Source: Candidatus Electrothrix communis (GTDB lineage Bacteria; Desulfobacterota; Desulfobulbia; Desulfobulbales; Desulfobulbaceae). From it: a DNA stretch of 64,000 nt. The DNA lies in NCBI GenBank assembly GCA_030644725.1, contig CP130629.1, positions 1,047,572 to 1,111,571 on the forward strand, in the 5' to 3' direction. Below are positions 22,458-58,335 of this stretch, one piece after another. The notes beneath the pieces are model-generated. The model saw nothing but the letters and a program-made list of their open reading frames with translations. It ran no database searches and had not been told where the DNA came from. Every line of letters begins with the position of its first letter. Within the stretch, counting starts at the first letter, position 1. The position numbers were made by a program, and so were the translations under genes.

Positions 22458-23327
22458 CTACCGATTAATTCCCCAGAATGGGTCTGAACTCCATCCAGAA
22501 TGGAACCCCATATTCTGAAGCGGTATTTCTTTATTTTGATCAATTAAATCAGATAAACGCTGCTGCCAGCCGGAGCCGTCGGCAATGACATCAAGAAACA
22601 CATTGAGCACCGCTGCCTGAGAATAAAACTTTGAATTGTTGATAAAATGTTTCCGATATTTTTTAAGAACCTTTGGTTTAACGGTAAATGTTCGATTCCA
22701 TAACCTTTCATGATGAGCGCAGAGATTACGAAGATAGGTGAAAGAGCGCAACCAAGATGTCATTATGGTATAATCAATACTGTACGGCTTACAAATTTCT
22801 TTCTGTAATTCTCTTGATTTCAAATTACTAAAAATCTTGGACCAAACTCCAAAGGACAGCTCCTCTGCAACTTTCCATGACGGAGGGAATGTGTTTGTCT
22901 TCTCCCGGACAATCTTTAGTAGTTGATGATGGTTATACCCATGAATAAACAGGGCACTGTTTTGATACCAATATTCATCATGCTGTACGCACAGAGTGTT
23001 GGAAATAGTTGTCCGTACAGCGACTTCTATACGTTCAACAGCATCCATAACCAGCAAGCGGAGTTTGCGATCAAAGATGTAATAATTTAAAACTTGATCA
23101 AACGATGTGTTTTTTTGAAATTTCCCGGATGAGTCAAGGAACGGCGGGAAGTAACCAGACAGGCGATAATATCCGATAAACTTAAGATAATGGAGAGTTC
23201 TCTCTGGATTCGGCAGGACCAATCCTCTTTTTCGAAGCAGGCTGATCTGTTCATGTGGGTTCAGGGCAGAAGGCCCATGAAATGATACTGCTTGTGAAGA
23301 CATAAAAAAACCCGCCGGGGTGCGCAT
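22458..23327 (-). CDS. Abi_2 (AbiD/AbiF-like) HEPN protein, candidate guarded toxin
   Basis: 289 residues, or 281 from the second ATG (23303), which better fits the family. Features: NPHEQISLLRKRGLVLPNPE, LKFIGYYRLSGYF, a FDRKLRLLVMDAVERIEVAVR helix and the HEPN RNase motif R-x4-H in YLRNLCAHHERLWNRTF. These define the Abi_2 family of abortive-infection proteins, putative RNases that harm the host cell when active. It is inserted between cas3 and cas5c in the same orientation, which is not a standard I-C gene. Upstream are two promoter-like boxes, a protospacer-like site for the adjacent mini-array, and a palindrome. A GC hairpin followed by T7 (23320-23304) directly precedes ATG 23303 and could attenuate expression. 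Confidence 0.88.
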   Translation of the reverse strand: MRTPAGFFMSSQAVSFHGPSALNPHEQISLLRKRGLVLPNPERTLHYLKFIGYYRLSGYFPPFLDSSGKFQKNTSFDQVLNYYIFDRKLRLLVMDAVERIEVAVRTTISNTLCVQHDEYWYQNSALFIHGYNHHQLLKIVREKTNTFPPSWKVAEELSFGVWSKIFSNLKSRELQKEICKPYSIDYTIMTSWLRSFTYLRNLCAHHERLWNRTFTVKPKVLKKYRKHFINNSKFYSQAAVLNVFLDVIADGSGWQQRLSDLIDQNKEIPLQNMGFHSGWSSDPFWGINR

Positions 23328-23381
23328 TAGAAAGAGGCGTGGCAGGTATTGTTATCTTTTTATTATCATCCCTGCTCACAC

Positions 23382-23488: not shown

Positions 23489-25918
23489 TTATGCATTGAG
23501 TAGGTCCATTAAGCCAACCACCTCTGTGGATAGCCCGAAGTCCTTATTATAATGCTGCTCATACAGACAGTAAATTTCTTCACCCTCCCGTGCAGGATAA
23601 ACCGCCTGCGCTTCTTTCAACTTTCTCCAAACATTGGGAAAGACATTGACGCTGTACTGCTGAGCCTGCTTCAGCAGGTCATACGCCTTGGACGGTTCAT
23701 ACTCCGCGCAAAGGTCAGCTATAATTTCCTTCCCCTTGCCATAAGGGACAATAACCGCCTGCGTCGGTGCGTCAATGGCCTTGAAGGCCCGGCCCGCTGT
23801 CTTGAAAGATTGTTGAAGCATAATTGAGTTAGCTGTCCGCCCGATATTCAGTTGATTATCACTGAGCAGACTCAGAAGGGTGTCCTGTCTCCCCGCCTGT
23901 TTTTCATTCAGGGGATAGGGCATAAGGTCTGCCCGTTCATAAAAGTAATAACGGAAATATCGGCTCATCACTTCCGGATCAAGCAGGTTGGCATATTTCT
24001 CTTCCGAAAAGATACGTAACGCTGTATCTCGTCCGATTTTGATATCCTCCAGCATGTCAATCTGTTCATCCTGCGGATTCACCACAAAGACCTCAGCGGT
24101 CGGCAGATTACCGTTACGATTGCAGCGTCCTGCCGCCTGGGCAATGGAATCAAGCCCGGCTAGAAAACGAATGACGGAGTTGAAATCCACATCTACTCCA
24201 GCTTCAATAAGCTGGGTGCTGATGCAGAGCACGGGTAAATCCTCATCAAGACGCTCTCGGACCTCGGCGAGAATTTCTTTTCGATGGGCCGGGCAAAGAC
24301 TTGTGCTGAGGTGAAAAATTGTCCCTTCATCAACCTCATCCGCACAGCGTTCATAGAGTTTTTGCGCCCATTTTTTGGTATTCACCACAACCAGACAATT
24401 GCCTTTTTCCTCCAGTTCCTCTAAGGCAAGCTCGGCGATTTCTTCTTCAGACCAGCCTTTGGGCCGTACCTGATTTTTTATCTCCACCCGTTTGAGTTGC
24501 TCAAAAACGGCGGTCATGTTGTCAACCAGCTCATGTCCTGCCGGGATGTTAAGCTGACCCTTGTCAGAATTTTTAAGATCATTCAATAAAGGCTGGGTGG
24601 CTGTACAGAGCACTGCTGTTGTTCCGGCATGATTCACAAGAAATTGCAGGGCATTGCAAAAGAGATGCACACATTTGACTGGCAGGCTCTGGATTTCATC
24701 AAAAATTAACACCGAGTTTGCAAGGGTGTGCATCCGTCGGGCACCACGGGTGCCGCCGCCGAACAGTACTTCCAGGAACTGAACCATGGTCGTAAAAATA
24801 ACCGGAGCATCCCAGTTTTCCGTAATCAGTTTTGTCCGCCAGTCCAATTCTTCCGGCTCAAGGCTGGAATGATGCTCCAGCACCCACGGGAATTCATCGC
24901 CTTCCTGCTCAAGAATCTTTCGGATTTCTTCGGCATTCTGTTCAATGATAGAGGTGAAAGGAATGATATAAACGATATGTTCGAGATTATGTTTCTTCGC
25001 ATGGTGCAGGGCGTAGCGCATACTGGCAAAGGTCTTGCCACCGCCGGTAGGCACGGTGAGCGTATAGATTCCCTGCTCGTCTTCAGCTCGTTTTCGACAC
25101 TGCTCAGAAATTTCCCGTCGGACTGTGTCAATTTCATTGCGGATAGAAAAACTTGCGTTTTTTGCCTCCATCCGCTCAATAGCGACCTGCCAATCCACCG
25201 CACCGCCTGAGCGAGCCTTTGCTTTGGCCGGGTCTTCAAAATCGGCACTGTTGATTCGATCAGCATCAATCAGGCAGCTGAAGAGAAATCTGGTGAATAA
25301 ACCAAGCCGGGCTTGTTGAACAGTTTGAGAATCTTTCTTTTCAGGCGCGACAATTTTCAGAAGCAGGCTGAAAAAATCATCAAGAAAATTTTTGGTTGCA
25401 GTATCATCAAACTTGTGCAGCTCGTTGAGTGATTCCTTGTCAGCAACCTGAAGACATTCCTGGAGATTGGTTTTTGTATCCTCTTTGCCGATTCGTTTTT
25501 GAAAACCGTTCTTCCCGTCTACCTTCAAACAATCCAACAGCCCACCGTGATGGGAAGCAAGACAAACCGCAAGCATCTGGCCGACCAACTTCCCTTGCGG
25601 GCCGTACTCCCTGAAATGCTGCCAGATCCATTGAGCACCGGCAGTGGAGTGATCAATCTTACCTCTCAAGGCCTTGGCATCAACATACTCACCATCAATA
25701 TCCGGATTGAGCATACCGGTTGCGGACTGGATATAGATCTGAAAATCATTGCTGTATTTGCCGAAATCATGCAGCAGACCAAGCAGACGGCCTGCTTCCT
25801 CCGCACCTGCTTTCCGAGCAAGCCTACCGCAGATTGCAGAAACCTCTTGCAGGTGCTCAAGAACAGATTGTTCCGTTTGGTCAGCATCACGACGGTGAGC
25901 TATCTGTGTATTCTTCAT
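23489..25918 (-). CDS. cas3: CRISPR nuclease-helicase Cas3 (type I-C)
   Basis: 809 residues from ATG 25918. An in-frame GTG three codons upstream (25927) is possible. The N-terminal HD nuclease domain has LLGLLHDFGKYS and the downstream CLASHHGG. The superfamily 2 helicase follows: VPTGGGKTFASM (Walker A), IFDEIQSLP (DExx box), and motif VI near FLAGLDSIAQAAGRCNRNG. Cas3 is recruited by Cascade to shred target DNA. It is the first gene of the locus, and 162 bases separate its stop from the Abi_2 frame. The 295 bases upstream of it hold no recognised gene. Confidence 0.96.
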   Translation of the reverse strand: MKNTQIAHRRDADQTEQSVLEHLQEVSAICGRLARKAGAEEAGRLLGLLHDFGKYSNDFQIYIQSATGMLNPDIDGEYVDAKALRGKIDHSTAGAQWIWQHFREYGPQGKLVGQMLAVCLASHHGGLLDCLKVDGKNGFQKRIGKEDTKTNLQECLQVADKESLNELHKFDDTATKNFLDDFFSLLLKIVAPEKKDSQTVQQARLGLFTRFLFSCLIDADRINSADFEDPAKAKARSGGAVDWQVAIERMEAKNASFSIRNEIDTVRREISEQCRKRAEDEQGIYTLTVPTGGGKTFASMRYALHHAKKHNLEHIVYIIPFTSIIEQNAEEIRKILEQEGDEFPWVLEHHSSLEPEELDWRTKLITENWDAPVIFTTMVQFLEVLFGGGTRGARRMHTLANSVLIFDEIQSLPVKCVHLFCNALQFLVNHAGTTAVLCTATQPLLNDLKNSDKGQLNIPAGHELVDNMTAVFEQLKRVEIKNQVRPKGWSEEEIAELALEELEEKGNCLVVVNTKKWAQKLYERCADEVDEGTIFHLSTSLCPAHRKEILAEVRERLDEDLPVLCISTQLIEAGVDVDFNSVIRFLAGLDSIAQAAGRCNRNGNLPTAEVFVVNPQDEQIDMLEDIKIGRDTALRIFSEEKYANLLDPEVMSRYFRYYFYERADLMPYPLNEKQAGRQDTLLSLLSDNQLNIGRTANSIMLQQSFKTAGRAFKAIDAPTQAVIVPYGKGKEIIADLCAEYEPSKAYDLLKQAQQYSVNVFPNVWRKLKEAQAVYPAREGEEIYCLYEQHYNKDFGLSTEVVGLMDLLNA

Positions 25919-26222
25919 ATGAAACACTTTTGCTTATAAAGGGGGAGAAAAGGGAAGGATAACTATCATAAACAAATACAACTTTTAGAAAATAATGCAA
26001 GGGGTATCTTTTCGGTATCATCAGGATGATCAGTTCGATACGCACAAGAAGGGCTGCGGGTGAGAAAGGGGGGAGAATAATGCTCCCTATGGAATTATAG
26101 AATACTACTAAATACAGAAAAAAAGACGAACAGGGAGAGAGGGGAAAGAGCTGGCCAAATCAAGTCGGGTGCCGGGTACACGCAATGACTGCCGGAGAGC
26201 AGAGAATCAAAAACCAAGCAGA

Positions 26223-32629: not shown

Positions 32630-35083
32630 ATGATTCTCTTTTGTGAAGAATGCGGTCAGAGAAACAGTATAACCCTGACCCCCTCTCTGATTGAAAACAA
32701 CAGCTTCACCTGTCAATTCTGCCACTTCAACAGTCCGTTCCCCTTTCTTGATCAGGAACGACAAAGCACTGGCAGCAATCCCGGTATTACATGGGAACCC
32801 AAGGTGTTACACCTCGGGCCGGAAGCTAAAAAGGAAGGGCAGCGCTTTCAGCTTATTTTCAAGGTCACCGATATTCAGGCTCCTGAACTCACGGTTGAAC
32901 CATTCCAGAAGTTCGCCCATCTGATCACCGTAAAAAAAATAGCGAGCGACAGCTTTACAGTTATTGTACACCCCGTAGGAGACGACGATATCCTGCCGCC
33001 GGGATCCGAAAACACTGGGTTGATCTACTGCGAAGAACACCTCATGAGCTGGGGGACAATAAATATTGTCTATGAACACCAGGTCGATGCTTCTGCTGAG
33101 GAAGACCAAACAAAGCAAAGGAAGGGGGAAAGGAAGGAAGGTGTACCCCATCCATCAGAAGAAAAGACATCTGGAAAAAGGCAAGGTGAGCAAAATGAAA
33201 ATCATGAAATCTTGCATCAGCAATTGGCTGATTATAAAACACAACTTCATCAGGCCAAAACTACCTCATTCAGGCTGCAAAAAGAATTGTCTATTCGGCG
33301 TCAGGTCATGGACAATCAGGATTGCGGCATCCTTTTTATTAATCTGGAACAGCGCATTGTTTATGCTAACCCTGTTTTTCTCAAGCGAACCGGCTACAGC
33401 TTAAAGGCTATCCAGTCCAAACGGCTTGATCAGGTCGTCCGTCTCACAGACTCCGAGTACACCCTGAAAGAGGCAATGAAAAAAGCCATTCATCAGGAGA
33501 AATGGGAAGGGAGAGCCTTTCTGAAAGATGCGATTCGGCAGGGGAATTGGCAGGGCGGAGCAGACCAGAAACAATCAGAGGAAAAACCATCCATTATCTC
33601 CTTTAAATATTCGGATGGTCAAGAGGAGGGGCAAGAAAAAGGCTTTATCTGCCTCCTGCATCTGGAAGAATCCCTGACTTCTGCCTCTCCTCTCAAATGG
33701 GGTGCTCAAAACAATCCCGGCAATCACCTGTCAGCAGAACGCACCTATGATGCATTAACCGGACTTGTGGACAGACCTTCCTTTCAGCAATATCTCGAGG
33801 ATTCAATACAGGCAGCGCAGGAGGATAATAGCAAGATAAGCCTACTCTACGTTGATCTGGATCATTTCAAACGCATTAATCAGATATTCGGCCCTGGTTT
33901 TGGTGATAAAATACTATGCAGTGTTTCAACCATTCTCCAGCAATGCGGTCAGGAGGTGGGTGCAGATCTGGTGGCCCGGCTCAGCGGTGATGAATTTGCC
34001 ATTATCCTCCCCCCGCCTTCGAATAAAAAAAATGCGGAGAAACTTGCAAAAAAAATCATGCAGCGGTTTCGAACTCCGGTCAACAATGAATCCCGGGCCA
34101 TTCTGATCAGACCGAGTATCGGCTTCAGTATGTTCCCAGACGATGGAGAGACTCCACTGGATGTACTGCGTAACGCAGATACAGCCATGGAAGCCGCCAA
34201 GAGTGAGGGCGGTAACAAAATCTGTTCCTGGAACAGCGGCATGAAAATACAAGCCGCGCAGAGCCTGTACCTGGAAAATGATCTTCGTCAGGCTGTGGCG
34301 GATGACGTCCTGATCAACTTTTATCAGCCGCAAATCAATTTACTTGATGGCTCTATCTGCGGAATGGAGGCCCTGGCCCGCTGGATCCATCCGGTAAAAG
34401 GTCTTATATCACCGGCCGCCTTTATCCCTATTGCCGAAAGCACTGGGCTTATTGAAAAATTAGGCATCGACCTTGTGCGCCAGGCCTGTCTCCAGGGGAA
34501 AAAATGGCGGGACATGGGCTTTAGAAAATTCATCATGGCAGTGAATATTTCAGGGCGCCTGCTCCGCCGTCGCGACCTTTTTTATCAGATCATGAGTTGT
34601 ATAGAAAGCACCGGTTTTCCACCTGAGGCATTAGAGGTTGAGTTTACTGAGGGTGTACTTATTGAGAACATGGATTTCACGGTTGATCTGATTAATAAGC
34701 TACGGGCAGAAGGGGTAAAGCTGGCCATTGATGATTTCGGGACCGGGTATTCATCGCTGAGTTATTTGCAACATCTTCAGGTAGATAAAATTAAGATTGA
34801 TCGTTCTTTTATTACCAATGTGACCACCAATAATACCGACGCTGCCATCACCCTCGGTATTATCGCCATTGCTCAGAATCTACGCTTCAAGGTAATCGCC
34901 GAGGGAATAGAAACCGAGGAGCACCTTTTCTTCTTGCAAAAAAATCAATGCCACGAAGGGCAAGGATTCCTCTTCAGCCCACCCATTCCGGAAAAAGAAA
35001 TGACCGGATTACTGTTGCGTGATTGCAGTGTCGCGCTTAATCATAAACGAATGATTGATAAGTTTTACTCTATCAAGGCGTGA
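32630..35083 (+). CDS. Zinc-ribbon-PAS-GGDEF-EAL cyclic di-GMP signalling protein
   Basis: 817 residues. N-terminal CEECGQRNSI ... CQFCHFNSPF zinc ribbon (1-45), a domain of unknown type (50-170), a coiled linker, a PAS domain (about 220-330; CGILFINLEQRIVYANPVFLKRTGYS), a GGDEF domain with SGDEF (degenerate first Gly; about 385-540) and an EAL domain (about 560-800) that keeps GMEALARW, NISGRLL, EVEFTEGVL and IDDFGTGYSSL. Synthase activity is possible because SGDEF motifs can be active. EAL looks catalytically complete. Likely a dual or phosphodiesterase enzyme that could feed the GEMM riboswitch at 40143-40236. The ATG lacks a strong ribosome site. Confidence 0.92.
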   Translation: MILFCEECGQRNSITLTPSLIENNSFTCQFCHFNSPFPFLDQERQSTGSNPGITWEPKVLHLGPEAKKEGQRFQLIFKVTDIQAPELTVEPFQKFAHLITVKKIASDSFTVIVHPVGDDDILPPGSENTGLIYCEEHLMSWGTINIVYEHQVDASAEEDQTKQRKGERKEGVPHPSEEKTSGKRQGEQNENHEILHQQLADYKTQLHQAKTTSFRLQKELSIRRQVMDNQDCGILFINLEQRIVYANPVFLKRTGYSLKAIQSKRLDQVVRLTDSEYTLKEAMKKAIHQEKWEGRAFLKDAIRQGNWQGGADQKQSEEKPSIISFKYSDGQEEGQEKGFICLLHLEESLTSASPLKWGAQNNPGNHLSAERTYDALTGLVDRPSFQQYLEDSIQAAQEDNSKISLLYVDLDHFKRINQIFGPGFGDKILCSVSTILQQCGQEVGADLVARLSGDEFAIILPPPSNKKNAEKLAKKIMQRFRTPVNNESRAILIRPSIGFSMFPDDGETPLDVLRNADTAMEAAKSEGGNKICSWNSGMKIQAAQSLYLENDLRQAVADDVLINFYQPQINLLDGSICGMEALARWIHPVKGLISPAAFIPIAESTGLIEKLGIDLVRQACLQGKKWRDMGFRKFIMAVNISGRLLRRRDLFYQIMSCIESTGFPPEALEVEFTEGVLIENMDFTVDLINKLRAEGVKLAIDDFGTGYSSLSYLQHLQVDKIKIDRSFITNVTTNNTDAAITLGIIAIAQNLRFKVIAEGIETEEHLFFLQKNQCHEGQGFLFSPPIPEKEMTGLLLRDCSVALNHKRMIDKFYSIKA

Positions 35084-35274
35084 GTTTTAATACCCAAGGT
35101 ACCAACAACCTGAAAAACAATACCCTGCTCTCTTGAGTTTCCTTTCTCTCTGTAAATGAACTTTTTCGTCCCCTTCTATGCACATCGGTCTTTTTTTATT
35201 GTTCTTACCGAGAATTTAGGGTATCCCTCATCACTGAGATTTTTAAATAACTCATTTTTAAAACGGGAGGAAGT

Positions 35275-35922
35275 ATGAAGTCAATTTTTACGATCACTTT
35301 TCTTGTCACGTTGTTGTTAACAGCAGGTACGGCTCTTTCTTATGACTGCTACGAAAGAACCCCACCTCAAATCCACCCTTCTACCTGTTCCCATTGCCAA
35401 AAACCACAGTGCAGGCAGCGCCATCAACCCTGCTCTACTCGCTGCGGCAAATGCGAAAAATGTAACAACTTCCGCATGCACAACCAACATTGCCAAAAGA
35501 AAGTAGTACATCAGCAGAGTTACCAATGCAAGACAACATGTACCCAAAAAACAGAGCAGATTACCACGATTCAGTGCAGACTCTGTGGTAACAGCTACCC
35601 AAAAGGTGGAGAGCATTACTGCAACAGGGTACAATGCAGAGGATGCGGCCAAATACACCCAAGAAATATTGAGCACCGTTGCGGTACAGTTCAATGCAGA
35701 AGATGCGGCGTTCATCATCCGCAAGGTATGAGGCATCACTGTGGTGAAGCTCACAGACCGCACCAAGACTGTTCTCAAGGAGACTGTTATCAAGGGAACG
35801 CCTGCCAATATCAGGGCAAACAAAAACAGTGTGCAACACGAGGCTGTAGCCTAACCCGCAAGGAGAGTCAGGAAACAATGGAAAACCGATGGCATACCTG
35901 GTTTAAAAATCAAGCCCAGTAA
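35275..35922 (+). CDS. Secreted Cys/His-rich repeat protein
   Basis: 215 residues: a signal peptide (MKSIFTITFLVTLLLTAGTALS) and then a Cys/His/Gln-rich mature part. It has a CxxC series (CSHCQKPQC, CGKCEKC) and three consecutive repeats of about 25 residues, patterned xQCRxCGxxHPxGxxHxCG (around residues 100-165). Each has two Cys pairs and two or three His, suitable for zinc or another metal. GGGAGGAAGT precedes the ATG. I do not recognise the family. It might be a periplasmic metal-binding or cell-surface protein. Neighbours give no hint. Confidence 0.75.
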   Translation: MKSIFTITFLVTLLLTAGTALSYDCYERTPPQIHPSTCSHCQKPQCRQRHQPCSTRCGKCEKCNNFRMHNQHCQKKVVHQQSYQCKTTCTQKTEQITTIQCRLCGNSYPKGGEHYCNRVQCRGCGQIHPRNIEHRCGTVQCRRCGVHHPQGMRHHCGEAHRPHQDCSQGDCYQGNACQYQGKQKQCATRGCSLTRKESQETMENRWHTWFKNQAQ

Positions 35923-36007: not shown

Positions 36008-36049
36008 CTTCGTAGAAAACCACCCCCCCCTTGCGGGGGTGGATTGTTT
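36008..36049. repeat. Dispersed hairpin repeat, copy 1 (upstream of glycosyltransferase)
   Basis: CTTCGTAGAAAACCACCCCC ... GGGGGTGGATTGTTT. The reverse complement of the region 52391-52428 reads CTTCGTAGAAACCCACCCCC ... GGAGGTGGATTGTTT, so the two are one repeat in opposite orientations. Copy 1 ends directly at the glycosyltransferase start codon, so its hairpin may occlude or supply the ribosome site. Confidence 0.7.
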
Positions 36050-37177
36050 ATGAACAACAAAAATTCCGTTTCCGTCGCAGCTCCACTGCTCTCCATCGTG
36101 GTTCCTTGCTATAATGAAGTTGAGAACGTGGAGGAGCTGACCCACCGCCTGGCCAAGACGCTTCAGGGAATTTCTTGGGAGGTCATCTTTGTCGATGATG
36201 ACTCTCCAGATGAAACGAGCCGCAAGGTCATTGATATGGCCTTTCAAAATCCGAGGGTTCGCCTCATTCACCGTATCGGGCGGCGGGGCCTCTCATCAGC
36301 CTGCGTAGAGGGTATGCTTTCCTCCTCTGCTCCGTATCTTGCTGTGATGGATGCTGATCTCCAGCATGATGAAACCCTGCTTCCTGACATGCTGACTGCT
36401 TTGCGCAGTCAACAGCTTGATATTGTGGTGGGTAGCCGCTACACAGACGGTGGTGGCATTGGTGGCTGGGATGCAAAAAGAGCAGCCTATAGTCGTTTTG
36501 CTACCCGCATCAGCCGTTATTTTACCCAAACAGAGCTAAGCGATCCCATGAGCGGATTTTTTATGCTCCGGCGGGAGGCTCTGATGCACCGAGTGCGTAG
36601 ACTGTCCGGTGTAGGTTTTAAAATCCTGCTGGATCTCTCTGCCTCGTCCTCAACACCCATGCGTTTCCTGGAACTCCCCTACACCTTTAAGGAACGGCAT
36701 GCCGGGGAAAGCAAGCTGGACAATCGGGCTCTGCTTGAGTTCGGCATGCTGCTCTTGGATAAATGGATCGGCCATCTGGTTCCGGTCCGTTTTGTCGCCT
36801 TTACTCTCGTAGGAGGAATCGGCGTATTGGTTCATTTTCTGGTCCTCCTGCTGGTGTTTCGCATAACCGGTTCCTCCTTTATGCTTGGACAGACCGTTGC
36901 CACCTTAGTGGCCATGACCACCAATTATCTCCTGAATAATTTCTTCACCTATAACGATGTCCAGCTCAAGGGCTGGAAGCTGCTCACTGGCTGGTTTTCC
37001 TTTATCCTGGTTTGCGGGATTGGAGCGGCAGCCAATGTGGGGATCGCTTCACTGCTCTTTCAACGACATACCAACTGGATGCTCTCGGCTCTGGCTGGGA
37101 TAGGCGTGAGTTCGGTCTGGAATTATGCGGTTACAGCAGTGTACACCTGGCGAGCTCCGTCCATCGGGACAAAATAA
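36050..37177 (+). CDS. Dolichol-phosphate-mannose-synthase-like glycosyltransferase with GtrA domain
   Basis: 375 residues from ATG 36050. GT2 domain (1-230): LSIVVPCYNEVENVEEL, VIFVDDDSPDET, MDADLQHDE (DxD-like), and FVGSRYTDGGG region. The C-terminal 130 residues form four membrane helices of the GtrA/DPMS family (FVAFTLVGGIGVLVHFLVLLL onwards). Such fusions transfer a sugar from a nucleotide donor to polyprenyl phosphate and flip or place it for envelope glycans. It is monocistronic, converging on nadD. Confidence 0.9.
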   Translation: MNNKNSVSVAAPLLSIVVPCYNEVENVEELTHRLAKTLQGISWEVIFVDDDSPDETSRKVIDMAFQNPRVRLIHRIGRRGLSSACVEGMLSSSAPYLAVMDADLQHDETLLPDMLTALRSQQLDIVVGSRYTDGGGIGGWDAKRAAYSRFATRISRYFTQTELSDPMSGFFMLRREALMHRVRRLSGVGFKILLDLSASSSTPMRFLELPYTFKERHAGESKLDNRALLEFGMLLLDKWIGHLVPVRFVAFTLVGGIGVLVHFLVLLLVFRITGSSFMLGQTVATLVAMTTNYLLNNFFTYNDVQLKGWKLLTGWFSFILVCGIGAAANVGIASLLFQRHTNWMLSALAGIGVSSVWNYAVTAVYTWRAPSIGTK

Positions 37178-40142: not shown

Positions 40143-40236
40143 AAGCAGAGCCGGAAAGTTGATAAAGCCACAACCGTCGTGAGGCGGTGTCGGAAAGCCA
40201 CGGATCTCCTGAAGGAGAAAGTCGGGCTGCCTGCTT
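40143..40236 (+). promoter_or_regulatory. GEMM-I class riboswitch (cyclic dinucleotide)
   Basis: Core words in order: AAAGCCACAACC, the hairpin CCGTCGTGAGGCGG, then CGGAAAGCCACGGATCTCC, TGAA, GGAGAAAGTCGGGCTGCC. This follows the GEMM-I consensus (AAaGCcA, GTGAGGC hairpin, CGCAAAGCCACGG.CT, GAtAGcCGGGtTGCC). Outer ends AAGCAG/CTGCTT can pair. It lies about 36 bases before ATG 40272. The class binds cyclic di-GMP, or 3',3'-cGAMP in a variant known from Geobacter. I cannot decide the ligand. Regulation of the secreted protein by it is inferred. Confidence 0.8.
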
Positions 40237-40271: not shown

Positions 40272-41384
40272 ATGAAAACCACATCAAGAAAAATCCGCAC
40301 AAGTTTCATTTCCGCAGCAGCACTTCTTTTTGCAGCCCCTTTTGCCGCCCAGGCGGTCACAGTTGACGGTCAGTACATCCATGACTGGAATTTGGAAAAT
40401 GATTTCACTATGCCCATGTACAGGGCGGGAGATTCTAATCCCGATTTTTCTGGATATGAGGAACTGTCTAAAGCATATCTCCGTTATGACAGCAGCACCG
40501 AGACGGCCTATGTGCTGGTGCTCGACACTGAGAAACGTGCGGATATTTCGGAAAGTCCTAGCGACGCTTGGGTAAAAATATATGAGCTCGGAAAAAGTAC
40601 ACTTGTTGACGGAAGTAGCGTCAACGACGGTGACGCACCTGATTTTGCTTGGGTGACGGACGATAAGGGTGGTGTAATCGGTTGGGAAGGCTCCTTCCTG
40701 CTTCCTGCTGGCGTGTACGAGGGAGTTGAAATTCACGTCAATCATGGTGCCGATACTTCATCAACAGGGAAAAGTAATGCCAAAGGAGTTGATCAGACGA
40801 AAACTATTAACACTGATGATCTACTAACTGTTGATGACAAGCCTACACTTCAGGTTGAGTTCACTGAACCCTTACAGCCCATTGATACGCTCACACCGCA
40901 AGCCTGTACTAACGAGCTGAAACGTCAGACTCTCGTAGCAGGACAGAATACCGATGTCGGCTTTGTCTGCGCCAGAGTGGAAGATCAGGATGAAGACGGT
41001 AATGCTGACACCTTGGTTATCACCTATGAAACCGACAACGGCTGGAATCTTGACCAAACCCATCTCTGGGTAAAGAACAACGAAGATCCTACGCTTCCCG
41101 CGAACAAGAAGGGTAATCCCAAGATCGGAAATTTTCCTTATGTCTCTGAGAATGTTGCTAATAACGTGAAGAACGTAGAGATTCCTCTGGAGAACTTCGG
41201 CAAGCTGCATGATATGCTGTGCAGCGGCAGCGGAATGGCTCTGGAGCTCAATGCGGACTTGGCCGCTCATGCGTCCGTACTTCATGATACCCTCGGACAG
41301 GAAACCGCCTGGGCCGCTGGCGAGCAGATCACCGCAAAAGGTAGCTGGGCCATGAAAACAGCAATCAAGTTCACATGTAAGTAA
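40272..41384 (+). CDS. Secreted protein under GEMM control, unknown
   Basis: 370 residues from ATG 40272, preceded by TCAGGAGGATTGTT. Upstream frame extension covers the riboswitch and is not coding. Signal peptide (SFISAAALLFAAPFAAQA), then a beta-rich mature domain of about 340 residues with DUF-type repeats of acidic residues (EDQDEDGNADTLVITYETDNGW is calcium-loop-like) and four Cys. No family recognised. The leader and the type II secretion operon make it a plausible extracellular cargo. A strong terminator follows at 41418-41450. Confidence 0.7.
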   Translation: MKTTSRKIRTSFISAAALLFAAPFAAQAVTVDGQYIHDWNLENDFTMPMYRAGDSNPDFSGYEELSKAYLRYDSSTETAYVLVLDTEKRADISESPSDAWVKIYELGKSTLVDGSSVNDGDAPDFAWVTDDKGGVIGWEGSFLLPAGVYEGVEIHVNHGADTSSTGKSNAKGVDQTKTINTDDLLTVDDKPTLQVEFTEPLQPIDTLTPQACTNELKRQTLVAGQNTDVGFVCARVEDQDEDGNADTLVITYETDNGWNLDQTHLWVKNNEDPTLPANKKGNPKIGNFPYVSENVANNVKNVEIPLENFGKLHDMLCSGSGMALELNADLAAHASVLHDTLGQETAWAAGEQITAKGSWAMKTAIKFTCK

Positions 41385-41505: not shown

Positions 41506-43071
41506 ATGAAGAAGCTGAATCGAAGAACAACGATATTCGCTCTTGCCTTGGCTTTCTGCTTTACCTGCTTAGCCGGTCAAGGTATTGCCAAATCGCAGAA
41601 ACAAACAACCTACCCGCTTGGTGACATTCCACTTCCTGAAGAGATCTACAAAAAGAATCTCAAGGTCACAGCCATGGATATGGCTTCAGCCTTAGATCCT
41701 TCCTACGATGCCCGTGATGAAAGCATTGTGACCTCGCCCAAAAATCAAGGATCATGTGGCTCATGCTGGGCCTTTGCCAGTGTCGGGGCTCTAGAGTCGC
41801 ATTTGCTCAAGGCCTATGGTGTTGGCCCGGAAGACCTGTCTGAGCAGCAACAAATTTCTTGCAATACAGCCATGTGGGGTTGCTCCGGCGGCAGTTCCAA
41901 TGCCATCCGTTTCTGGGAAGATAACGCTTCGGAAGGAAGCGGTCCTGTTGATGAAACGTATTTTCCTTATACGACGTCAGATACGACAACTTGCCAAAAC
42001 GCAGAAGGGGAGCAGCTGAATTATCGGGTAACCGGCTGGCATACTGTGGCTGCAACAGATTTTAAAAATTCTCTGTCAACCTATGGCCCCAGCTATTGGC
42101 GTTATGATGTATATGGGGATTTTTACACCTATTGGAATAACGGGCAGCCCGGTGAAGTCTATGTGAACAGCACCTCTGATTATCAAGGCGGACATGCTGT
42201 TTTACTGATAGGTTGGGATGACAGCAAGGGCGCTTACCTCTGCAAGAACAGTTGGGGGAACGGCGGACCTAACGGAGACGGCACCTTCTGGATTGCATAT
42301 ACCGGTCATGTTAACGATTTAGGATTCGGCATGGCCAACTTTAGCCTAACCGCCTTGGCTTGCTCTTCCGATGCTGAGTGTAATGACGGTGTGTATTGCA
42401 ACGGAGAGGAAACCTGTAATAGCAATACAGGTGCCTGTCTGGCAGGAACACCGGTGACCTGTGCTGAAGACGGCATATTCTGCAACGGAGAGGAAGTATG
42501 CAACGAGGCAAATCAAAGTTGCGGCAGCAGTGGCGACCCTTGCGGAATCGAAACAATCTGTAATGAAGACGCAGGAATCTGCGAATCTCTCTGTGGCAAC
42601 GGTGTTTGTGATGCTGGCGAAAACTGCTCCTCCTGTCCGAGCGACTGCATCGGCGGAACAAGCGGTGGCACCTGCGGTGGCTGCTTTAAAGGTGCGTGCG
42701 ATGGCGTATGTCATCCCAATAAAGAAGATTCTTCCTGTTCTGATTGTTGGTCATCCTATTGTTGTGGCGATGGCGTTTGTGAGGGAGAAGAAAACAATAC
42801 TAACTGTGCAATAGACTGCCCTGCACCGGTCTGCGGTGATGGGGTTTGTAATGCCGAGGAAGATCAGTACACTTGCCCCGGAGATTGCCCTGTTGTCACT
42901 CCAGAGATCTGCGACAACGGCCTGGATGATGATCAAGACGGTGCAACAGACTGTGCAGACAGTGACTGTGCAACCTCAGCTTCCTGCCAGTGCGGCGTCA
43001 AAAACTCCTCATGTCAGACTGACAGTGAATGTTGCTCCAATGTTTGTAAAAATGGCCGGTGTGCTCCTTGA
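41506..43071 (+). CDS. Secreted papain-like (C1) cysteine protease with Cys-rich C-terminus
   Basis: 521 residues: a signal peptide (TIFALALAFCFTCLAGQGIA), a short propeptide, and a C1A peptidase domain (about 60-285). Catalytic Cys is in NQGSCGSCWAF, His in GGHAVLLIGWD, Asn in CKNSWGNGGPNGDGTFWI. The C-terminal 230 residues are a string of disulfide modules (CNDGVYCNGEETCN, CGNGVCDAGENCSSCPSDC, CGDGVCEGEENNTNC), typical of myxococcal and cyanobacterial adhesive/EGF-like modules. Likely exported by the Gsp system. It stands alone, ended by a hairpin at 43143-43160. Confidence 0.9.
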   Translation: MKKLNRRTTIFALALAFCFTCLAGQGIAKSQKQTTYPLGDIPLPEEIYKKNLKVTAMDMASALDPSYDARDESIVTSPKNQGSCGSCWAFASVGALESHLLKAYGVGPEDLSEQQQISCNTAMWGCSGGSSNAIRFWEDNASEGSGPVDETYFPYTTSDTTTCQNAEGEQLNYRVTGWHTVAATDFKNSLSTYGPSYWRYDVYGDFYTYWNNGQPGEVYVNSTSDYQGGHAVLLIGWDDSKGAYLCKNSWGNGGPNGDGTFWIAYTGHVNDLGFGMANFSLTALACSSDAECNDGVYCNGEETCNSNTGACLAGTPVTCAEDGIFCNGEEVCNEANQSCGSSGDPCGIETICNEDAGICESLCGNGVCDAGENCSSCPSDCIGGTSGGTCGGCFKGACDGVCHPNKEDSSCSDCWSSYCCGDGVCEGEENNTNCAIDCPAPVCGDGVCNAEEDQYTCPGDCPVVTPEICDNGLDDDQDGATDCADSDCATSASCQCGVKNSSCQTDSECCSNVCKNGRCAP

Positions 43072-54236: not shown

Positions 54237-55403
54237 ATGAAGCATCTATCCCTGTTACTCCTCTGCTGCTCAGCACTCTGCTGGACCGCTGCCGGATACA
54301 GCCATGAGCTCCCAGAGGGAGCTGTTCCTTTGGTAAAATCTAAAGAATGCGCTCCCTGCCATCCCACCATCTACAGGGAATGGCAAGAATCATTTCACGC
54401 CAAGTCCTCAACCCTCAAGGACCCAGCCCACGGGGCGGTTCATCAGGCCTTTCTCAAGGCTATGGAGAAAAAAGGCAAAAAAGGTAATTACCATTGCGCC
54501 AACTGCCATGCCCCAATGGCTAATAATATTAAAGACTTGATGACCGGTGCAGCTGAGCTCGATAGCGAAAACTGGACCCATACAGAGGGCACAGGCTGCA
54601 CCTTTTGCCATCGCATTGAATCCATTGTCGAGAAAGAAAATTTCAATCAGTATCGACTGAATAAGGACGGTGCCTTTCATACCAGTAGACCTGCCAAAGA
54701 AAATCTTCCGCATAAGACAGGGCCTTCAGCCTTATTTGCTGAGGGTAAGGTCTGTATGGGCTGCCATAGCCATAAGCTGAACGGGAAAAAAGTGCCTATC
54801 TGCATGATGAAGGACGAGGCCCAAGGCAATTGCCTTGAATGCCATATGCCTGCGGTCGAGGGCAGAGCCGCCGTAGGAACAGATGGCAAAACCCATCGTT
54901 CGCACAAGATGCCTGGCGGCCATGATATAGAGATGCTGAAAAAGGCGGCAACCCTTGATGCGAAAATTACCTCTGAAGGCGAAGAACGCAGCCTTGTGGT
55001 GACGGTACAAAACATGATCAAGCATACCTTTCCCTCAACCAATCCCATGCGCATCGCCTTTGTTAAGGTGGTTGCCAAGGATAAGGACGGGAAAAAGGTT
55101 TGGGAGAATTTTAAAGAAAGCCCGATGGAAGATAAGCAGGCCCTGTTCTTTAAGGCGTTTAAGGCTGGAGAAAAGGTCGGGGTACCGTCCTGGGCTGCTG
55201 AGGCTGTTGCCTTTGATACACGGCTCAAGGCCGGAGAGACACGCGAGATCACCTATCCGCTTGCAGACCCGGCAATCAGCCAGGTGGATGTGATGCTGAT
55301 CTACCGCCTCTTCCCGCCCAAGGCAATTAAGGGCTTTGGAATTCCTGAAGACGGGGTGAATGAAAAAGCCTACCCGGTGGCCAAGAAGAGCCTGACCCTG
55401 TAA
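54237..55403 (+). CDS. Pentahaem c-type cytochrome (c554/NapC-like)
   Basis: 388 residues. Signal peptide MKHLSLLLLCCSALCWTAAG. Five CxxCH haem sites in order: CAPCH, CANCH, CTFCH, CMGCH and CLECH, all within the first 210 residues. A C-terminal beta-rich domain (VVTVQNMIKHTFPSTNPM onwards) may be a Cu-like or redox-partner fold. Preceded by AAGGAGAATCTGATC. The layout resembles the cytochrome c554 family of periplasmic electron carriers in sulfate reducers. Confidence 0.92.
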   Translation: MKHLSLLLLCCSALCWTAAGYSHELPEGAVPLVKSKECAPCHPTIYREWQESFHAKSSTLKDPAHGAVHQAFLKAMEKKGKKGNYHCANCHAPMANNIKDLMTGAAELDSENWTHTEGTGCTFCHRIESIVEKENFNQYRLNKDGAFHTSRPAKENLPHKTGPSALFAEGKVCMGCHSHKLNGKKVPICMMKDEAQGNCLECHMPAVEGRAAVGTDGKTHRSHKMPGGHDIEMLKKAATLDAKITSEGEERSLVVTVQNMIKHTFPSTNPMRIAFVKVVAKDKDGKKVWENFKESPMEDKQALFFKAFKAGEKVGVPSWAAEAVAFDTRLKAGETREITYPLADPAISQVDVMLIYRLFPPKAIKGFGIPEDGVNEKAYPVAKKSLTL

Positions 55404-56692: not shown

Positions 56693-58246
56693 TTACTGTT
56701 TATCGACTCTTTCTACATCTTGCGGAGAGAGCAGATGCAGAAAACGTTGTTCATAAAAAAGGCCTGCCGGACCAGTAGTGTGCGGGGTGTAGGGCAGCAG
56801 CCCCTCGTCTTTTCCGGTCAGGTTATCAAAATCAGCAAGGATTTCTCCGTCCTCATCAACAGCGGAAAGTCGCAGGTCAAGGATGGGGCGAAATACCTTG
56901 ATGAGACCATCCGTATCTTTACGTATCAGGATATCCTCCCAGCGACGTTTGGTAAAACCGGTATACCAGATGCCTGCTTTTCGCTGGCCAGTGACCTGAT
57001 CAGGCAGAGAAGGGGTCAGCGAGTCTTCCTCGCTGTACATATTATGCTCAACAAAGCGTTCCACTTCAGAGCTGGATTGGGCAGCAAGGCGCTCCCAGGG
57101 ATCGGCATCATCAGAGTAGCTGAGCAGTAAATGGGTTGCCTGATCATTATAGGTCCATTGGGCATGGCAAACCTGGCAGGTAACGCTGTCTTTATACTTG
57201 GCATGGGCCGGATGCTCCAGGCGCGGAACCAATCGCTCCTGCTCGTCGCCCTGAATTTTCAGGAGGAGTTTTTTCCCGTCTGCACGAAGATTGGCAAGGG
57301 AGGGTGAGACATCATCAGAGGCATCTCCAGAGACACCAAGGGCATGGCAGTCCACACATTGTACAGAAGGCTTTTTGCCGGATAGCTCAGCGCCGCTATG
57401 ACAATCCAGGCAGGTCATGCCGCGCTGTTGATGGATATCCGGGACGAGATTATGCAATTCCATCCCGTAGGGCCGGAGAACAGGGGCCCTGGTGGCAAAG
57501 GGCGTGCTGTACGACCAATCATGGTCCTGCTCATAGCTGCCATCAAAATCACTGCCCACATGGTTGCCGTAATGGCAGCTCAGGCATTGGCGTTTGCCCG
57601 GTCGGATAAAGGCATGGTTGGGTTTCCCCTCCCCGCTGCTCGTCAGCTTGCCATCCGTATACTGGAGATGACAGGCTGCGCATCCGCTGCCGTGTCGAAC
57701 ATAGAGGTAATTATCCCCCTTGCTGTACACATGGCAACGCAGGCATTGGCGGCGGAGCAGATCGTTCACCAGCTCCTCTTTGGTCTGCGGGGGCCCCTCA
57801 CCCTCTGGAATCTCTGTCAGGTTATTCAGCGGAGAAAGATCAAAATGTCCCCGAACCAGGTTGACGGCATTGCTCATGGTGAAATGGCTTGACTGCCCAC
57901 AGCGCTTCAGCTGTTCAGCATGGCATTTACCGCAGGTCGCCTCCATGTGTTCCGGGCTTGCTGCCTGGGCTATCATGCCCTCATGAGCCGATTCCTTGTC
58001 GTTTGTCTCGTTATTGCCCTGATGGCAGTCAGTGCAGGCAAGATCATGGGCGCTATCTGTTTGTATTTTGCTATGGCAGGCTTGGCAGCCAGGAGCAGGG
58101 GGTGATGATGGCGAAGTTTTTTGAACCGCTGCCGCTGTCGGCTTTACTTCAGGTGGTGGAACAGGAGCAGCCTTTTTTTCTTCCTCACTGCATCCGAGGA
58201 GCTGGAGTAGAAAAAAAAGGGCAAATAATGTGAAATGGTGTCTCAT
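56693..58246 (-). CDS. Nonahaem c-type cytochrome lipoprotein
   Basis: 517 residues from ATG 58246 (RHHFTLFALFFLLQLLGCSEEE: lipobox LLGC, so membrane-anchored). Nine CxxCH sites in order: CQACH, CTDCH, CGKCH, CLRCH, CAACH, CLSCH, CLDCH, CVDCH and CQVCH. A 15-codon upstream extension lacks homology. The Pro-rich linker after the lipobox and the spread of haems fit outer-membrane or periplasmic wire-type cytochromes of sulfate reducers. Which electron donors and acceptors it joins is not shown by the sequence. Confidence 0.92.
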   Translation of the reverse strand: MRHHFTLFALFFLLQLLGCSEEEKKAAPVPPPEVKPTAAAVQKTSPSSPPAPGCQACHSKIQTDSAHDLACTDCHQGNNETNDKESAHEGMIAQAASPEHMEATCGKCHAEQLKRCGQSSHFTMSNAVNLVRGHFDLSPLNNLTEIPEGEGPPQTKEELVNDLLRRQCLRCHVYSKGDNYLYVRHGSGCAACHLQYTDGKLTSSGEGKPNHAFIRPGKRQCLSCHYGNHVGSDFDGSYEQDHDWSYSTPFATRAPVLRPYGMELHNLVPDIHQQRGMTCLDCHSGAELSGKKPSVQCVDCHALGVSGDASDDVSPSLANLRADGKKLLLKIQGDEQERLVPRLEHPAHAKYKDSVTCQVCHAQWTYNDQATHLLLSYSDDADPWERLAAQSSSEVERFVEHNMYSEEDSLTPSLPDQVTGQRKAGIWYTGFTKRRWEDILIRKDTDGLIKVFRPILDLRLSAVDEDGEILADFDNLTGKDEGLLPYTPHTTGPAGLFYEQRFLHLLSPQDVERVDKQ

Positions 58247-58335
58247 AATCTTGACAGTGTAGCCTAACCATGCTACATGGATAAAGCTCAAATAAAGAGC
58301 GGGGTGATTGACTCGCTTTTGCGCACAGAAAAAAT

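Follow-up and report, generated by a model that had tools for sequence, protein, structure and literature searches.

What does the small Cys-rich protein encoded at this locus of Candidatus Electrothrix communis do with its tandem Cys- and His-containing repeats? The gene lies on a genome that forms a single contig of 4,845,585 bases, in the window, by which we mean the whole stretch of 64,000 nucleotides analysed here. The initial annotation, made from the letters of the DNA, read the product as a secreted repeat protein and suggested metal binding at the cell surface or in the periplasm. Our analysis partly confirms this observation, which is right in essence, and corrects the repeat length and the arrangement of the Cys residues. 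The locus comprises the following features.

32630–35083, plus strand: gene for a PAS-GGDEF-EAL protein (Pfam), the upstream neighbour.
35265–35273, plus strand: Shine-Dalgarno sequence GGGAGGAAG, 1 base 5' of the ATG and strong as read from the sequence.
35275–35922, plus strand: gene for the Cys-rich, probably exported protein (215 residues), an open reading frame with orthologues in six other genomes of the genus; ATG at 35275, stop codon at 35920–35922.
35275–35340, plus strand: putative signal peptide by eye, residues 1–22, with an AxS/AxA cleavage site before Y23.
35386–35463, plus strand: Cys-rich N-terminal stretch, residues 38–63, with three CxxC, variable between homologues.
35572–35631, plus strand: repeat 1, residues 100–119 (C101, C104, H114, C116), the sole copy intact in all seven proteins.
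35632–35691, plus strand: repeat 2, residues 120–139 (C121, C124, H134, C136).
35692–35751, plus strand: repeat 3, residues 140–159 (C141, C144, H154, C156).
35878–35916, plus strand: C-terminal segment, residues 202–214 (RWxxW...Q), a predicted helix in a low-confidence model.
36020–36042, plus strand: GC-rich hairpin just 5' of the GT2/GtrA start.
36050–37177, plus strand: gene for a GT2 glycosyltransferase with a GtrA membrane domain (Pfam), start placed by eye (the ORF is listed from TTG 36044).

The GGAGGAAGTATGAA of the Shine-Dalgarno sequence is conserved in all seven aligned loci. A signal peptide had been claimed initially, and the N-terminus indeed reads as one by eye (Sec-type, AxS site after residue 22); 98 of 132 residue comparisons in this region are identical between homologues. 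It is this signal peptide that points to export and to a location at the surface or in the periplasm. The mature chain of 193 residues contains 25 Cys and 16 His with six CxxC, and is basic and hydrophilic (pI 9.1, GRAVY –1.33). Among the 142 ATG-started ORFs of at least 80 residues in the window, the protein ranks first in Cys fraction, and no other contains the repeat motif. The further CxxC pairs noted initially near its start are present (C38, C57 and C60), and at the opposite end W206, W209 and Q213 of the C-terminal segment are invariant in the seven aligned sequences. Three other readings of the gene were dropped: a shadow ORF on the minus strand (35317–35823), because omega is below 1 for the plus frame; a lipoprotein, because no lipobox is seen by eye; and a haem protein or c-type cytochrome, because the mature protein contains 0 CXXCH.

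The repeats follow an exact period of 20 residues, against the roughly 25 first estimated, and the three copies that had been recognized start their motifs at C101, C121 and C141. Each copy carries C-x2-C-G-x8-H-x-C, that is, one CxxC and one HxC (three Cys and one conserved His) in place of the two Cys pairs initially described. The proposed consensus QCRxCGxxHP fits copies 2 and 3, whereas copy 1 reads QCRLCGNSYP, and any two copies have 9–10 of 20 residues in common. When the mature sequence was shuffled 20,000 times, C-x2-C-x9-H-x-C, a motif defined only after the sequence had been seen, occurred at least once in 564 shuffles, at least twice in 5 and three times in 0. A lag of 20 is the best self-identity lag, with 28 matches, but the maximum over 2,000 shuffles was 30 at some lag, so that periodicity alone is not decisive. 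The independent evidence for the repeats is their conservation in the six homologues.

Identity of the homologues to the window protein is 46–75%; in the comparison that included the neighbouring genes it is 46–74%, whereas the proteins of those genes keep 81–93%. Omega is 0.12–0.40 for the Cys-rich gene (six pairs with the window), 0.06–0.10 for the GGDEF/EAL gene (three computable pairs of six) and 0.04–0.10 for the GT2/GtrA gene, with distant pairs near saturation at synonymous sites; these values indicate that the Cys-rich gene evolves fast yet under purifying selection. Within the protein, 52 of 54 motif Cys and 16 of 18 motif His are identical in the six homologues, as compared with 82 of 96 other Cys, 23 of 78 other His and 495 of 912 other mature residues, where gaps count as changes and the near identity of G005 and G007 leaves about five independent rows. 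The several His reported initially are mostly unconserved. The motif occurs three times in G000, G004 and G003, four times in G005, G007 and G001, where the fourth copy follows repeat 3, and once in G002. In the G002 homologue (L007, minus strand, 1489–2190), decay has affected repeats 2 and 3 and spared repeat 1, whose motif His is the single His of this protein, yet 22 Cys remain. Cys totals are 25 in the window protein and 24, 26, 28, 28, 26 and 22 in the six homologues, an even number in six of the seven. No other observation points as strongly to a joint action of C, C, H and C, in the manner of a metal site, as the retention of the motif amid drift. Against this, the loss of two motifs from G002 with 22 Cys kept hints at a role for Cys number outside the CCHC sites.

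The gene is present in one copy in seven of the eight genomes of the window's genus, Candidatus Electrothrix (marine cable bacteria), and in all seven Electrothrix genomes of at least 89% completeness examined. G006, the one genome without a match, is 69% complete, and neither neighbouring gene was matched in it at E ≤ 1e-100. When the proteins of 96 relatives were searched, counting the window genome, the best match outside the genus had only E 0.0046. Profile A1, built from the seven homologous proteins and run over 73 family genomes, recovered the seven genus proteins at E 1.6e-83 or better and no credible homologue in the 65 genomes outside the genus, with four weak matches at E 0.016–0.061 in the 73-genome search. 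A profile of the repeats, run over 395 genomes of the phylum (window's included), matched the window at 8.7e-34 and gave ten weak matches at 2.9e-4 to 0.009. The best of these ten, L081 (2.9e-4), was rejected as a 351-residue open frame of a different kind with no such repeat by eye, and on this reading the phylum sample holds no credible homologue; the other nine had E 0.003–0.009, and four of the nine contained internal stop codons. A tblastn search against plasmids and phages gave no match. Scanning named genomes with exact peptide patterns from one protein, which detects close relatives only, yielded 59 stretches that fit a pattern, of which one is a relative (MTKO01000087.1, Candidatus Electrothrix aarhusensis MCF). 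The search for the same repeat in other Desulfobulbales, recommended at the outset, found none outside the genus in the family genomes and the phylum sample, and the protein is so far restricted to Electrothrix. Among the open-licence papers listed in our literature searches, no title or abstract opening concerned it.

The sister cable genus, Electronema, is most likely the genus g10 of our family set, because g10 is closest to the window both by ProA (82–84% identity; g14 is next at 78–82%) and by the GGDEF/EAL protein (63–68%), and because four of its five genomes encode an RcnA with a His-rich loop (24–39 His per 100 residues, as compared with 40–43 in three Electrothrix genomes). An RcnA with an enlarged His-rich loop has been described in cable bacteria in the part of PMC11247825 available to us. 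Both the 16S identities and the His-rich RcnA loops of g3, g5 and g7 speak against this assignment. Identity to the window over a 1-kb stretch of 16S is 94% for G018 (g12), 93% for G012 (g6) and G058 (g8) and 92% for the two full g10 copies, with 95% for a copy in G048 (g2) that is partial. The loops in L067, L068 and L072 (g5), L069 (g3) and L077 (g7) contain 30–43 His per 100 residues and are about as dense as those of Electrothrix and g10, though a large loop is called specific to cable bacteria in the same available part of PMC11247825. RcnA resembles the Cys-rich protein in being a metal-ligand-rich feature enlarged in cable bacteria, but it is a protein of another kind, an exporter in the membrane that carries a His loop. 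No match to the Cys-rich protein was found in the five g10 genomes, whose assignment to Electronema is indirect and unsupported by 16S; should g10 be Electronema, the two cable genera do not have the gene in common. Beside the GGDEF/EAL orthologue in the four g10 loci examined, no ORF with at least 10 Cys and no window match was listed for L052 and L053. One such ORF each in L054 and L055 was rejected as a counterpart, since by eye they have neither a signal peptide start nor the motif.

Gene order is the same in all seven loci, with genes for a TSCPD-domain protein, the PAS-GGDEF-EAL protein, the Cys-rich protein and the GT2/GtrA protein (domains by Pfam), so that both the PAS-GGDEF-EAL and the GT2/GtrA genes adjoin the Cys-rich gene in 7/7 loci. 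More distant genes vary; proA lies more than 1 megabase away in G005 and G007. Relatives of the GGDEF/EAL protein at E ≤ 1e-100 occur in 19 of 73 genomes, 7 of the 19 in the genus. By comparison, the GT2/GtrA protein has at the same threshold one homologue among the 65 genomes outside the genus (G019, 56% identical) and none in g10. From this distribution, the Cys-rich and GT2/GtrA genes seem to have been acquired or retained as a pair, mainly in the genus. A hairpin similar to the GC-rich one just 5' of the GT2/GtrA start is found there in five of seven genomes, with changes in sequence, and may control translation or terminate the upstream transcript; since it sits at the GT2 start, co-transcription of the two genes is no more than possible.

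The rest of the window contains several other features. A c-di-GMP-I riboswitch (RF01051, 54.7 bits; 40157–40234, plus strand) lies directly 5' of an ORF (40272–41384) for a secreted-looking protein with no Pfam family above the cut-off; none of the papers listed on cable bacteria and c-di-GMP concerned it by title or abstract opening. On its 3' side follows a papain-family (C1) peptidase gene (41506–43071, plus strand), whose product starts, by eye, with a signal peptide, ends in a long Cys-rich tail of CGDGVC-type repeats and, at 9.6% Cys, ranks second in the window. An Abi_2 family gene (22458–23346, minus strand), in which an abiF RNA (RF03085, 23310–23346) overlaps the start of the longest ORF, adjoins a gene for a Cas3-like helicase (23489–25927). 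Two multihaem cytochromes with 5 and 9 CXXCH, respectively, are encoded near each other at 54237–55403 (plus strand) and 56693–58291 (minus strand).

Searches with the single protein against Pfam, NCBIfam, PHROGs and PDB sequences gave no credible match, nor did searches with all seven members against Pfam and NCBIfam. The initial statement that no known family comes to mind held in these databases and in a fold search, one weak RING match being judged unrelated. This match, the RING of TRIM5 in PDB (profile A1; E 7.7e-4 and 0.0016), was rejected as a relative because the order of ligands differs; with the repeats-only profile TRIM5 is not among the PDB matches listed, the best RING being RAG1 at E 0.039, and no RING family in Pfam reached E ≤ 1 for any of the seven members. 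RING fingers follow the cross-brace order C-x2-C-x(9-39)-C-x(1-3)-H-x(2-3)-C-x2-C-x(4-48)-C-x2-C. TRIM5 and RAG1 are the best PDB profile matches and follow the Cys spacing only, with CxH where the Cys-rich protein has HxC. The Cys-rich protein, which is bacterial and has a putative signal peptide, instead shows C-x2-C-x9-H-x-C every 20 residues, with odd copy numbers among its homologues and a single copy in one of them, and a RING finger was dropped.

AlphaFold2 modelled the full protein poorly with two sequences (pLDDT 40.8), whereas the repeat array modelled alone reached a mean pLDDT of 75.7, copies 1 and 2 scoring best, and a short hairpin is predicted in each repeat. Foldseek against PDB returned 160 matches at E ≤ 10 and 0 at E ≤ 0.001; the top matches, none significant, are RING-like, UBZ and further folds that bind zinc, and the many zinc-site proteins among the weak matches also include LysW and a rubredoxin. 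In VIA-align, none of 318 chains reached Z ≥ 2. A module resembling a zinc knuckle is plausible, with no relative found for it. In common with zinc-knuckle and rubredoxin-like CxxCG sites, the repeats would combine a CxxCG knuckle hairpin and a second pair of ligands and, by inference, hold one metal per short module, and four conserved Cys/His residues are found in each module, with G002 lacking copies 2 and 3. They differ in the spacing C-x2-C-x9-H-x-C, the strict 20-residue period and the signal peptide, and such sites give no significant fold match and no convincing sequence match to the protein.

We tentatively prefer the reading that this is an exported envelope protein in which each repeat would hold one Zn2+-like ion. 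Following Sec export, each 20-residue repeat would fold into a small knuckle, with the CxxCG hairpin and the HxC around the ion, and one to four such metal-stabilised modules in a row would form a rigid string displaying variable surface residues. The occurrence of one, three and four copies favours one ion per repeat over a RING-like cross-brace. The modules would sit between the variable Cys-rich N-terminal stretch and the conserved Trp-containing C-terminal helix, and the Trp-bearing segment may be a contact point; modules and tail would then bind a partner, the most likely role being that of a small, metal-stabilised accessory component of the envelope. Zn2+ is a guess as to the metal, and nickel or copper would also be possible. 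The initial suggestion of metal binding is partly supported: the selectively conserved C-C-H-C set, the sole His of G002 and the predicted hairpin in each repeat speak for it indirectly, but VKOR in every genome of the genus and the even Cys numbers speak against it. The good retention of the other Cys, the poor full-length model and the lack of a fitting match among solved structures also count against the preferred reading.

VKOR and the even Cys numbers would fit a disulfide-bonded structural protein of the envelope or extracellular space, which we consider unlikely but worth serious attention. Its Cys would be paired by a VKOR/DsbA-type system into a cross-linked layer and the conservation of His would be incidental. 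All eight genomes of the genus encode VKOR, and one of the eight, the window's own, encodes DsbB; Cys numbers stay at 22–28 as the CCHC copies drop to one, and fast sequence drift and length variation would fit such a layer. The preferential conservation of motif His over other His argues against it, and an HxC would be needless in a disulfide protein.

A metallothionein-like periplasmic metal buffer or chaperone for Ni, Cu or Zn, which would bind metal in clusters and might supply or store the nickel of the fibre cofactor, is likewise doubtful. Like bacterial metallothioneins, the protein is small and rich in Cys and His, and the density of Cys in its basic, hydrophilic mature chain fits this reading, as does the unusual nickel handling of cable bacteria described in the available part of PMC11247825. 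However, the signal peptide and the regular knuckle repeats with HxC set it apart, and no metallothionein in Pfam or NCBIfam reached E ≤ 1 for any of the seven members. Further points against a metal buffer are that no nickel or copper family is found by Pfam among the 23 other window proteins scanned, that no Rfam element lies at the gene at gathering score in a search of the window, and that G002 does without two knuckle copies. The probable sister genus has no homologue either, although nickel fibres occur there too if it is Electronema (PMC11976967, available part).

How might the protein relate to the conductive fibres? According to the parts of the sources available, the fibres of the two cable genera coincide in position with S, Ni and Fe (PMC11976967), and a Ni-S protein core with a protein shell is described with no protein named there (PMC8238962). 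One published search for fibre metalloproteins looked for annotated nickel domains and for CXXCH motifs and required conservation across both genera, as far as the available part of PMC11976967 goes, and the Cys-rich protein would be missed by such a search because it is restricted to Electrothrix and carries a new motif. An accessory fibre role in Electrothrix would be possible, whereas a core role is unlikely. It seems improbable that the protein is a genus-specific metal-thiolate envelope protein that helps to build or coat the fibre network (in the fibre shell, the junction cartwheel or nickel hand-over), modified with the glycosyl donor that its constant GT2/GtrA neighbour makes and tuned between species by a knuckle number of one to four. 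That it forms the core of the conductive fibres in the periplasm we regard as very improbable: it is Cys-rich, has a putative signal peptide and occurs in every Electrothrix genome of at least 89% completeness, and PilA and cytochromes are proposed for conduction with the fibre protein not established in the available parts of PMC10580974 and PMC11976967, yet the two cable genera alike have fibres (PMC11976967) while none of the 65 other family genomes, g10 among them, has a credible homologue, absence from the probable sister genus makes a core conductor unlikely, and divergence this fast is unlike a conserved conductor.

The gene encodes a real orphan, conserved within its genus and bearing a clear ligand motif, and metal-stabilised modules are its preferred reading. 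The protein neatly illustrates how a lineage-specific repeat can keep its putative ligands under selection while the remainder drifts. As the proteins of cable-bacterium fibres are not yet established in the available parts of the literature, the Cys-rich gene provides a concrete, short and testable candidate.
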